From NCBI GenBank assembly GCA_026985075.1, contig JALSQX010000067.1, positions 124,001 through 188,000 of the forward strand: a stretch of DNA of 64,000 bases, given 5' to 3'. This DNA is from Blastocatellia bacterium. Lineage in GTDB: Bacteria > Acidobacteriota > Blastocatellia > HR10 > J050. The notes under the pieces are model-generated. The model made no database searches and was not told the DNA's origin. It saw nothing but the letters and a program-made list of their open reading frames with translations. A program made the position numbers and the translations under genes. The stretch's first letter is position 1. Every line of letters starts with the position of its first letter. Positions 36,167 through 61,529 of this stretch are shown in pieces.

Positions 36167-36202
36167 AAAAAACCCCTACTCAGAACCCCGTCCAAGTAGG
36201 AG
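36167..36202 (-). terminator. Intrinsic terminator of the fluoride riboswitch expression platform
   Basis: On the minus strand CTCCTACT (36202-36195) pairs with AGTAGGGG (36180-36173), including one G-U pair, around a 14-base loop, and six T follow (36172-36167). The 5' arm shares bases with the last conserved segment of the aptamer, so folding of the aptamer excludes the terminator. Confidence 0.88.
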
Positions 36203-36249
36203 TCATCAGCCTGCTTCCGGGCAGGCGGTTCAGGGCGAACTCCATCGCC
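36196..36249 (-). promoter_or_regulatory. Fluoride riboswitch (crcB motif) aptamer
   Basis: Reading the minus strand, GGCGATGGAGTTCGCC opens the element, followed by CTGAACC, a short stem CCTGC/GCAGG, and CTGATGACTCCTAC. These are the conserved blocks of the fluoride riboswitch, with GAGT in the first loop able to pair with ACTC in the last block as the pseudoknot. The overlap with the downstream terminator gives the standard 'on with fluoride' switch. Downstream on the same strand are the 139-residue protein gene, crcB and DUF190. Confidence 0.92.
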
Positions 36250-36264
36250 ACAAATGAGGCAGCG

Positions 36265-59294: not shown

Positions 59295-59669
59295 TCACAC
59301 TCCCCAAAGGTAGTTCTCGTCCTCCATGATCGGCTCCATTTCACCCATTCCCACCCAGGAGGCATCCGGCTGGGGGAGAATCTCCAGAACCGATGTTCGC
59401 TCAAGTGATTCGACATCATGCTTCATGTAGGGTGGGAGATGAAGCAATTGATTCGATCCGATCACCACATCGTGGCCGTTGACGCGGATTCTCCAGGCCC
59501 CCTCCAGGACCACGATGAAGGCCTCATGAGGGAAACATCGATCGGGCAGGCACGTCCCCTTGTTCGTCTCCGTCCGCACGATGCTCAATCGCTCGCCAGC
59601 CACGAACTTGCGCAAGAAGTCTCTGGTCAGAGCCACGGATTCGAGTTCATCCCAGTGATAGTATCTCAT
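59295..59669 (-). CDS. Small single-domain cupin protein
   Basis: From ATG 59669, with AAGGAGG ten bases upstream, the protein has 124 residues. The cupin core is visible as CFPHEAFIVVLEGAWRIRVNGHDVVIGSNQLLHLPPYMKHDVESLERTS, split here across residues about 43-95, though only some of the usual His ligands remain (the HxH pair is reduced to one His). The end (DENYLWGV) recalls the small cupins with a D-x-YL tail. Function is unknown; small cupins can be enzymes, sugar-binding or regulators. It is a single gene preceded by an attenuator with a leucine-rich leader peptide, which implies control by amino acid supply. Confidence 0.82.
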   Translation of the reverse strand: MRYYHWDELESVALTRDFLRKFVAGERLSIVRTETNKGTCLPDRCFPHEAFIVVLEGAWRIRVNGHDVVIGSNQLLHLPPYMKHDVESLERTSVLEILPQPDASWVGMGEMEPIMEDENYLWGV

Positions 59670-59700
59670 GAATCTCTCGCCTCCTTTCCTCAACGGGGTA

Positions 59701-59743
59701 AAGAAAAAGGCCACCATCGCTCGGGGCAGTGGATGGTGGCCTT
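59701..59743 (-). terminator. Attenuator terminator upstream of the cupin gene
   Basis: On the minus strand AAGGCCACCATC (59743-59732) pairs perfectly with GATGGTGGCCTT (59718-59707) around a 13-base loop, and TTTTTCTTT continues into the spacer before the cupin gene. It ends 31 bases before the cupin ATG, so it must be read through for expression. Confidence 0.9.
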
Positions 59744-59827
59744 CGCTTCGGGGTTCAACCTTGGGTCAGAGCGTCATCCACTGCCCCTCCATAGTCTGAG
59801 GCTAATAATCAAGCCTAGAAGGAGGGG
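59723..59827 (-). promoter_or_regulatory. Mutually exclusive 1:2 and 2:3 RNA helices of the attenuator
   Basis: Segment 1 is CCCCTCC (59827-59821), segment 2 is GGAGGGGCAGTGGATG (59790-59775) and segment 3 holds CATCCACTGCCCC (59735-59723). Segments 1 and 2 pair over seven bases, with an inner AGGCT/AGCCT helix. Segments 2 and 3 pair perfectly over 13 bases and destroy the terminator stem. This is the arrangement of the trp, his and leu attenuators. Confidence 0.82.
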
Positions 59828-59911
59828 AGTTACAGGAAGAATGTGACCGGATAGAAGAAGAGCTTGACGACCGCACATCGATATTCGCCTTGTCATCCGC
59901 GCTCTTCTCAT
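59774..59911 (-). CDS. Leucine-rich leader peptide of the cupin attenuator
   Basis: A 45-codon frame runs from ATG 59911 to TGA 59774. It contains ten Leu and four Ile codons, including CTT CTT CTA, and CTC CTT CTA GGC TTG ATT ATT near the end. The Leu run lies exactly on segment 1 of the attenuator and the stop codon lies in segment 2. A ribosome stalled on these codons would free segment 2 to pair with segment 3 and allow read-through. The ribosome site of the first ATG is weak; internal ATGs at codons 6 and 12 are possible starts. Confidence 0.65.
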   Translation of the reverse strand: MRRARMTRRISMCGRQALLLSGHILPVTPLLLGLIISLRLWRGSG

Positions 59912-60184
59912 CCTGAAGTCTATAATATGTACTCCTCCCCGCCCCGAATGTCAAGTTATTTTTTTCGGATCCGCTGATGACGTGAGGTTCTTGCACTGGG
60001 TCAACGATTAAGGAGGCAGAGGCGCCTCAGAACTCGGACCGATGGTCTCCCGGCAGATACCCCCTCTCTGGCGAGAGGTCATCAAGATGGCGCAGGTCAC
60101 ATTACCCGGTGGGGATTCGCATCGGTGGACGGCAGAAGCCTTGACAGGCCGGTCGGTGGAGGTGGACAATGGCCAGCGGCGGCT
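59912..60184. other. Region between the leader peptide and the nuclease gene (273 bp)
   Basis: The minus strand has TTGACA near 59950 upstream of the leader, with AT-rich bases (TACATATTATA) 17-21 bases further on that could be its -10 element. The plus strand shows no strong signal for the nuclease gene. Confidence 0.4.
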
Positions 60185-61129
60185 ATGGCTTCCTTGAGCA
60201 ACGCATTCCTCTGGTCGGTGAGTCGCGATCGCCATTTCCAACAGTGCCCGCGGTTGTTTTACCTGCGGCATTACGCTCACTGGGGTGGATGGCGGTTGGA
60301 TGCCGACGATTTCGCCAAACTCTGCTATCGCCTCGGGAAGGTGAAGAGTCTCGACGCTTGGGCGGGCGAAATCGTTCACGAGGTCATTCGTGAAACCTTA
60401 GAGAAGGTGCGGGATGGCCGGCCGACCTCTCTGGAAGCGATGCTCTCCGAAGCCACCGAGAGGTTGCGGGCGGGATGGGTGCAGTCCCAACGGGAACAGT
60501 GGCGAAGCGATCCCAAACGGGCCACCAACCTCTTTGAGCATTACTATCATCTTGACATTCCCCGGGAGCGCACCGAGGAAATCAAACGGTGCGTCCGGGA
60601 ATGTCTGGAGAATTTCTGGCGATCCCCCGACTTCGACCTGATCCGACGAAGCGATCCCGGCCAGTGGAAGTGTCTGGAAGAGTTTCAATCGTTCGAACTC
60701 GAGGGGTTCACCGTGGCGCTGAAGATCGACTTCGCCATGGCCCACCGAGAGTGGATGTATATTTATGACTGGAAAACCGGTCGACCGCGGGAAGAGGATC
60801 GGCGGCAACTGGCCTGCTATGCCCTCTTCGGTAGGAGAGTCTGGGGCATTCCCGCTCACCGGATGAGGGTCATTCCCGCGTACTTGCGCCAGAATCTCTT
60901 CGACGAACGTGAAGTGACCCCCTCCGACCTGGTGGAGATTCAGGATTACATCTTGCGGGCCTGTCACCGCCTGCTCGCCCTGCTGAGAGACCCAGCGGCC
61001 AATCGAGCTGTCATGGAAGACTTCCCGATGACATCGGATCGCCGGACGTGTCGGCGATGTTCTTTCTGGGAAGCGTGTTATGGGAACCGACATATTGAGG
61101 GAAGATCAAGGGCGGGCCAGGAGAGATGA
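60185..61129 (+). CDS. RecB/Cas4-like PD-(D/E)XK nuclease with iron-sulfur cysteines
   Basis: Read from ATG 60185 the protein has 314 residues; a start at 60125 is possible and neither has a good ribosome site. The nuclease core shows IYDWKTGRP near 194 and the QLACYALF motif near 207, as in RecB-like exonucleases. Cys21 (FQQCPRLFYLRHY) and three C-terminal cysteines, CRRCSFWEAC near 289-298, would hold a [4Fe-4S] cluster as in Cas4 and AddB. No cas genes or CRISPR array are nearby, so it is probably a stand-alone repair nuclease. The tRNA pair follows. Confidence 0.85.
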   Translation: MASLSNAFLWSVSRDRHFQQCPRLFYLRHYAHWGGWRLDADDFAKLCYRLGKVKSLDAWAGEIVHEVIRETLEKVRDGRPTSLEAMLSEATERLRAGWVQSQREQWRSDPKRATNLFEHYYHLDIPRERTEEIKRCVRECLENFWRSPDFDLIRRSDPGQWKCLEEFQSFELEGFTVALKIDFAMAHREWMYIYDWKTGRPREEDRRQLACYALFGRRVWGIPAHRMRVIPAYLRQNLFDEREVTPSDLVEIQDYILRACHRLLALLRDPAANRAVMEDFPMTSDRRTCRRCSFWEACYGNRHIEGRSRAGQER

Positions 61130-61277: not shown

Positions 61278-61353
61278 GGGCCGTTAGCTCAGCTGGGAGA
61301 GCAGCGGACTCTTAATCCGCGGGTCGCAGGTTCGATCCCTGCACGGCCCCCCA
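61278..61353 (+). tRNA. tRNA-Lys (anticodon CTT)
   Basis: A full cloverleaf is visible: acceptor GGGCCGT/ACGGCCC, D-loop with AGCTGGGAGA, anticodon stem GCGGA/TCCGC around CTCTTAA, and T arm GCAGG-TTCGATC-CCTGC. CCA is encoded at 61351-61353. Confidence 0.95.
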
Positions 61354-61442
61354 CCACCACTGTTGAGCCGGGCGAGGGTGATGAGGGACTTCCGTCCCGT
61401 GCGGTATCGCTCTCATCACTTTCCCCATCTATCCTCTCCGAT

Positions 61443-61529
61443 GCGAAAGTGGCGGAACTGGAAGACGCGCCGGACTTAGGATCCGGTGGTTTTAAAACCG
61501 TGGGGGTTCGAATCCCCCCTTTCGCACCA
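61443..61529 (+). tRNA. tRNA-Leu (anticodon TAG)
   Basis: Acceptor GCGAAAG pairs with CTTTCGC, the anticodon stem CCGGA/TCCGG encloses CTTAGGA, a long variable arm follows, and the T arm is GGGGG-TTCGAAT-CCCCC. CCA is encoded at 61527-61529. It reads CUN leucine codons. Confidence 0.95.

Follow-up and report, generated by a model that had tools for sequence, protein, structure and literature searches.

The analysed window, a 64,000-nucleotide stretch of DNA, belongs to a genome of 5.2 Mb (G000 below). On its minus strand, at 59700-59911, a promoter is followed by a leader reading frame, by three RNA strands that compete for pairing, by an intrinsic terminator and by the start of a cupin gene (Table 1). 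The product of the cupin gene has no name in NCBIfam. The hexamers of the probable promoter and their spacing are identical in the sister species. The leader frame translates into MRRARMTRRISMCGRQALLLSGHILPVTPLLLGLIISLRLWRGSG*, and its control region reads CCC CTC CTT CTA GGC TTG ATT ATT AGC CTC AGA CTA. Strands 2 and 3 build a perfect 13-bp helix, and strand 3 also contributes to the terminator, to its 5′ arm as well as to its loop. The 3:4 stem consists of GGCCACCATC/GATGGTGGCC and three A-U pairs, 13 bp in all; TTTTTCTTT comes next. About 31-34 nt separate the end of the T-tract from the cupin ATG (59669). The stop codon of the leader frame is located at the end of strand 2, which is the position required in a classical attenuator. 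When folded, the 226-nt leader is 4.55 standard deviations better than its dinucleotide shuffles (z -4.55), none of 200 being as good. The original prediction had described a classical attenuator with all its parts on the minus strand: a 45-codon frame rich in Leu and Ile codons, a 1:2 helix CCCCTCC/GGAGGGG, a 13-bp 2:3 antiterminator and a 3:4 terminator with a T-run, ending 31 bases before the cupin. All of these parts are present.

Table 1. Position of the features at the cupin leader locus and of the related leaders
Feature	Position	Strand	Details
Probable promoter	59926..59954	-	-35 TTGACA 59949-59954, 17-nt spacer, -10 TACATA 59926-59931; read from the sequence
Leader peptide frame	59774..59911	-	45 codons from the first ATG; stop TGA 59774-59776
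Strand 1	59821..59827	-	CCCCTCC, codes Pro-Leu-Leu; partner GGAGGGG 59784-59790, which overlaps strand 2
Strand 2	59775..59787	-	GGGGCAGTGGATG, codes Gly-Ser-Gly and reaches into the stop codon
Strand 3	59723..59735	-	CATCCACTGCCCC, pairs with strand 2 or builds the terminator
Intrinsic terminator	59700/59704..59743	-	3:4 stem AAGGCCACCATC...GATGGTGGCCTT and T-run; -24.3 kcal/mol
Cupin gene	59295..59669	-	124 aa; Pfam Cupin_2; good Shine-Dalgarno AAGGAGG
ilvB leader, same genome	G000:C67:239883-239966	-	56 kb from the cupin leader; same build, ends GSG*
gltB leaders of the window's family	L180 (G000:C83:94794-94873), L181, L182		Thr/Ile-rich: SVTIMISAMT..., TTAITKVKAITTAV...

The 5′ end of the leader is less clear. 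No convincing Shine-Dalgarno sequence was found upstream of the leader ATG, and the TTGACA-17-TACATA promoter would give a 5′ leader of only ~10 nt, so that the exact start of the leader is uncertain.

Several other elements were recorded in the window. A gene for a PD-(D/E)XK (Cas4/RecB-like) nuclease (60125-61129, plus strand) is adjacent to the cupin gene and divergent from it, the divergence being shared by the sister species. The genes of tRNA-Lys(CTT) and tRNA-Leu(TAG) (61278-61529, plus strand) are situated 1.5 kb from the leucine-rich leader, which is probably a coincidence. A fluoride riboswitch aptamer at 36190-36258 on the minus strand scores 60.1 bits, well above threshold.

Conservation of the leader

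The cupin gene together with its leader is also found in G001, a genome of the same genus (cupin identity 84%), and in G002, a genome of another genus (49%). In these three genomes, which include the second genus of the family, the leader frame and its stop codon are kept. The leaders end in TPLLLGLIISLRLWRGSG and TPLLGLLLGIILLVLARGSG in the two genera; the residues differ and the character is the same, a Leu/Ile-rich run before RGSG* being retained despite the changes. The order of residues varies between the genera, and the content of branched-chain amino acids and the position of the stop are constant. The 5′ half of the frame varies freely. The 2:3 and 3:4 helices persist in the second genus with changes on both sides: one terminator pair turns from A-U into G-C, and the matching 2:3 pair from U-A into U-G. 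Among seven leaders both helices exceed slid and shuffled controls in the number of paired cells and of cells changed on both sides. The 1:2 helix is clear in G000 and G001 and is weaker, shifted and different in G002. Since the same frame, stop position and pair of helices are found again in another genus, with changes on both sides, the parts of the leader exceed what chance would give. The original prediction had named the loss of the Leu codons or of the 2:3 pairing in relatives as counting against it; the relatives turned out to retain both the pairing and the Leu/Ile codons. Used as a lone query, the leader peptide returned only noise beyond the genus. A match of the leader DNA in the genome G004 was discarded as a chance hit, as its 34 bases lie within a coding gene which by eye resembles an ATP-dependent protease.

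The conserved features bear on the possibility that the region is a protein- or ligand-sensing element similar to a riboswitch, in which the reading frame is incidental. The 5′ hairpin, the stable fold and the lack of a clear Shine-Dalgarno sequence before the leader frame are in line with such an element. However, what is conserved is the reading frame, its excess of branched-chain amino acids and its stop, and the 5′ part of the leader is not conserved in G002. Furthermore, none of the Rfam leader and aptamer models reached its gathering threshold at this leader, the best being Phe_leader with 16.1 bits against 55. A riboswitch-like element is regarded as highly improbable.

Related leaders of biosynthetic genes

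The leader of the ilvB gene in the same genome shares strands 2, 3 and 4, the GSG* ending, the spacing and the T-run with the cupin leader. It differs in its codons, which are a mixture of Leu, Ile and Val instead of a Leu majority, and in its target, the genes ilvB-N-C-D. The exact strand 2/strand 3 pattern GCAGYGGATGA-N25-55-TCCRCTG is confined to the cupin and ilvB leaders in the window's genome. The same holds for G001, and a control with the pattern reversed has no match there. Aligned with the ilvB leader of G006, the cupin leader scores 67-70, which is far above the shuffles (21.6 ± 3.5) and makes a common descent of the two leaders likely. The cupin leader is likely to be a sister of the switch that controls the synthesis of branched-chain amino acids.

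A covariance model was built on strands 2-4 and used to search for leaders in this class of Acidobacteriota. Within the window's genome its matches are limited to three leaders, those of ilvB, the cupin gene and gltB. The matches were read individually, and 26 leaders of the resulting set share a stop at a fixed place, nearly all of their peptides finishing with ...G*. In these 26 leaders the frame that ends at the fixed stop contains 9.2 Leu/Ile/Val residues per 22 codons; the two remaining frames contain 1.0 and 5.3 (Wilcoxon p of about 1e-5, which is not a strict probability because the sequences are related). The target is ilvB in 11 tabulated genomes, and by reading also in G085; citramalate synthase in 6 (HMM-tested in G006); the large subunit of glutamate synthase in 5 (HMM-tested in G000); and the cupin in 4 leaders. 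The codons of the gltB leaders suggest that nitrogen assimilation may be tied to the supply of Ile and Thr. Weak matches of the covariance model in G097, G052, G152 and G020 were not convincing and were rejected as attenuators. Upstream of leuA in the window's genome, no leader of this kind was found.

The set also bears on the idea that the product of the leader frame is a small membrane protein, that the frame has a terminator of its own, and that the cupin gene is expressed by unregulated read-through. The C-terminal half of the peptide is indeed hydrophobic in the cupin leaders, but charged residues occur in the ilvB leaders of the set. The freely varying 5′ half of the frame also speaks against a functional protein, as does the location of the last codons and the stop within the strand that pairs with the 5′ arm of the terminator, where compensatory changes are seen. 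This explanation is the least probable of those considered.

The upstream regions of ilvB (L076, L074, L073) and leuA (L063-L067) have in common a stretch like TTAAT...AAAAARAATMAATTTTACAAA, which at leuA adjoins a divergent gene resembling a LysR-type regulator. It was not seen before the cupin gene, and it is possibly a common operator of ilvB and leuA. In the sister MAG, G001, the leuA gene (L067/L068, G001:C267) is in two pieces in different frames, probably through a sequencing error.

Proposed switch and known attenuators

We propose that the region is very probably a ribosome-mediated attenuator of transcription, of the type known from branched-chain amino acid operons, and that it controls a cupin gene of the branched-chain amino acid regulon. 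The ribosome would trail the RNA polymerase through the leader frame. A shortage of leucyl-tRNA, perhaps also of isoleucyl-tRNA, would make it stall on the Leu-Leu-Leu-Gly-Leu-Ile-Ile run and mask strand 1. Strand 2 would then pair with strand 3, no terminator would form and the cupin gene would be transcribed. If leucyl-tRNA is plentiful, the ribosome would run on to the UGA codon, situated where strand 2 ends, and mask this strand, the 3:4 helix would pair and transcription would halt 31-34 nt before the cupin gene. If the leader is not translated, the 1:2 and 3:4 helices would form together, and transcription would halt as well. Both the translation of the leader and the stalling of the ribosome are inferred from the DNA sequence.

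The switch was modelled by folding the message with a ribosome placed on it, in equilibrium and not kinetically, with the footprint assumed to extend over 15 nt, counted from the A-site codon's first base. The terminator probability is 1.00 without a ribosome or with the ribosome at the stop codon and falls to 0.19-0.35 with stalls at the three Leu codons. In G002, stalls on the matching run, at codons -13 to -9, give 0.01-0.25. The same calculation yields no switch for the ilvB leader of the window's genome, and the folding therefore serves as a plausibility check only. The last 22 codons contain 7 and 9 Leu codons in the cupin leaders, compared with 2-4 for ilvB in these genomes. This larger share makes leucine the likeliest signal. 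Judged from these codon counts, which are also the basis for preferring Leu to Ile, charged tRNA-Leu is most likely what is sensed.

A peptide of this kind may also arrest the ribosome by itself, as in the erm-type leaders, where a drug or metabolite causes a specific nascent chain to stall instead of a shortage of charged tRNA. The hydrophobic peptide, which ends near the switching strands, would be suitable for this purpose. However, arrest would depend on a specific chain, and between the genera only the branched-chain content and the stop position are conserved, not the order of residues. The sister leaders, moreover, stand before genes of branched-chain amino acid and glutamate synthesis. 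We consider an arrest peptide very unlikely, if the least unlikely of the three alternatives to attenuation by charged tRNA.

The leu, ilvGMEDA and ilvB operons of E. coli have the classical leader-peptide attenuators of branched-chain amino acid synthesis. The cupin leader resembles them in the run of branched-chain codons, the stop beside strand 2, the 2:3 and 3:4 strands, the intrinsic terminator and, in G000 and G001, a clear 1:2 helix. What sets it apart is the cupin as target, together with a leader sequence and a G* ending peculiar to the acidobacterial set. For Actinobacteria, a study has described candidate leader peptides upstream of ilvB and attenuators upstream of leuS (PMC1262725). 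In the part of that study covered here they also have short frames rich in branched-chain codons that overlap terminators; they belong to another phylum and have other targets, with no cupin seen among them. The leucine-rich attenuator before ilvD of Staphylococcus aureus, for which a response to leucine was proposed from mutants (PMC5794164), likewise combines a Leu/Ile-rich peptide with a terminator; its antiterminator, however, pairs with the U-tract of the terminator, and it controls the whole ilv-leu operon. The putative mechanism of the cupin leader is of a known kind, classical ribosome-mediated attenuation. New are the cupin as a target and the previously unlisted set of predicted acidobacterial attenuators with a proposed signal and a proposed regulon that comprises ilvB, citramalate synthase, glutamate synthase and the cupin. 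The literature, as far as it was covered, contains no account of branched-chain amino acid attenuators in Acidobacteria or of a cupin in ilv operons.

The cupin and its relatives in ilv/leu operons

In about 20 relatives the cupin gene adjoins ilvC inside leuA/ilvBNC/ilvE/ilvD/leuB operons, for example in the order leuA-ilvB-ilvN-ilvC-cupin-ilvD-leuB in G010. The tested neighbour is ilvC at 18/18 loci (TIGR00465); one of these is in G229, whose family is a different one and lies outside the class. A further family has the gene between ilvE and ilvC. In G272, ilvC was not found at a distance of up to 1.5 kb from the cupin. In G003, which belongs to the same order and another family, the arrangement is attenuator-cupin-gltB-citramalate synthase; its leader ends in ...AATISVIVGITIGLITIRGSG*, and the terminator ends just before the cupin gene. 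In the window's genome, the genes ilvB-N-C-D have no cupin between ilvC and ilvD.

With a profile of the operon cupins, the window's cupin is the best match in G000 (2e-20; next 6e-5), and the match is reciprocal. The lone cupin shares 25-33% identity with the operon cupins and has a long branch. The first tree had very long branches and left the lone cupin unresolved. When rebuilt without the longest branches, it groups the window's family with the cupins of the ilvE-cupin-ilvC operon (support 88/82); the window's family and all operon cupins are separated from the others with a support of 85/79, which is short of decisive. Every operon cupin carries the C-terminal motif LW[AG]V (once LWAM), and those found away from such operons lack it; the window's cupin ends in LWGV. 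We infer that the window's cupin descends from an operon cupin. On the simplest account, the window's family is where the gene departed from the ilv operon and came under a duplicate of a branched-chain leader; in this family the cupin has a putative leucine-biased attenuator copy of its own.

The cupin, which has no assigned role, is in this way tied to branched-chain amino acid synthesis through both gene order and regulation: it joins the pathway because its switch is a sister of the switch for this synthesis and because it is found inside the operons of relatives. A place for the lone cupin in the branched-chain amino acid response, as originally proposed, is supported by the same two observations. 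The view that the attenuator controls the gene is likewise supported, but the judgement that a cupin is an unexpected target has to be softened, since the gene belongs to the ilv/leu operons of relatives and appears here as a relocated member. Its repeated place in ilv/leu operons, and the leucine switch of its own after leaving them, make the role of the cupin directly testable.

The AlphaFold2 model shows a single cupin barrel (pLDDT 81), closest to Sthe2323 (4e2g) and to KdgF-like cupins (PDB 7zyc, 5fq0) with TM-scores of 0.74-0.78. In comparison with these proteins, the window's cupin shows 15-22% identity, has two metal-site histidines replaced and carries the conserved LWGV tail. The HxH...E...H ligands (3-His/1-Glu) are represented by R44, F46, E49 and H84, whereas the operon cupins keep the site with H44, H46, E49/E50 and H84. 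As two histidines are replaced, metal catalysis of the kind known from other small cupins is doubtful in the window's family. On a reading for which we see the chances as evenly balanced, the cupin has been relocated from the ilv operon, has lost the usual metal site and has come under a leucine switch of its own, through which its dosage could be set separately from that of the pathway enzymes. The model gives no ordered structure for the conserved LWGV tail, which might, speculatively, be a docking motif.
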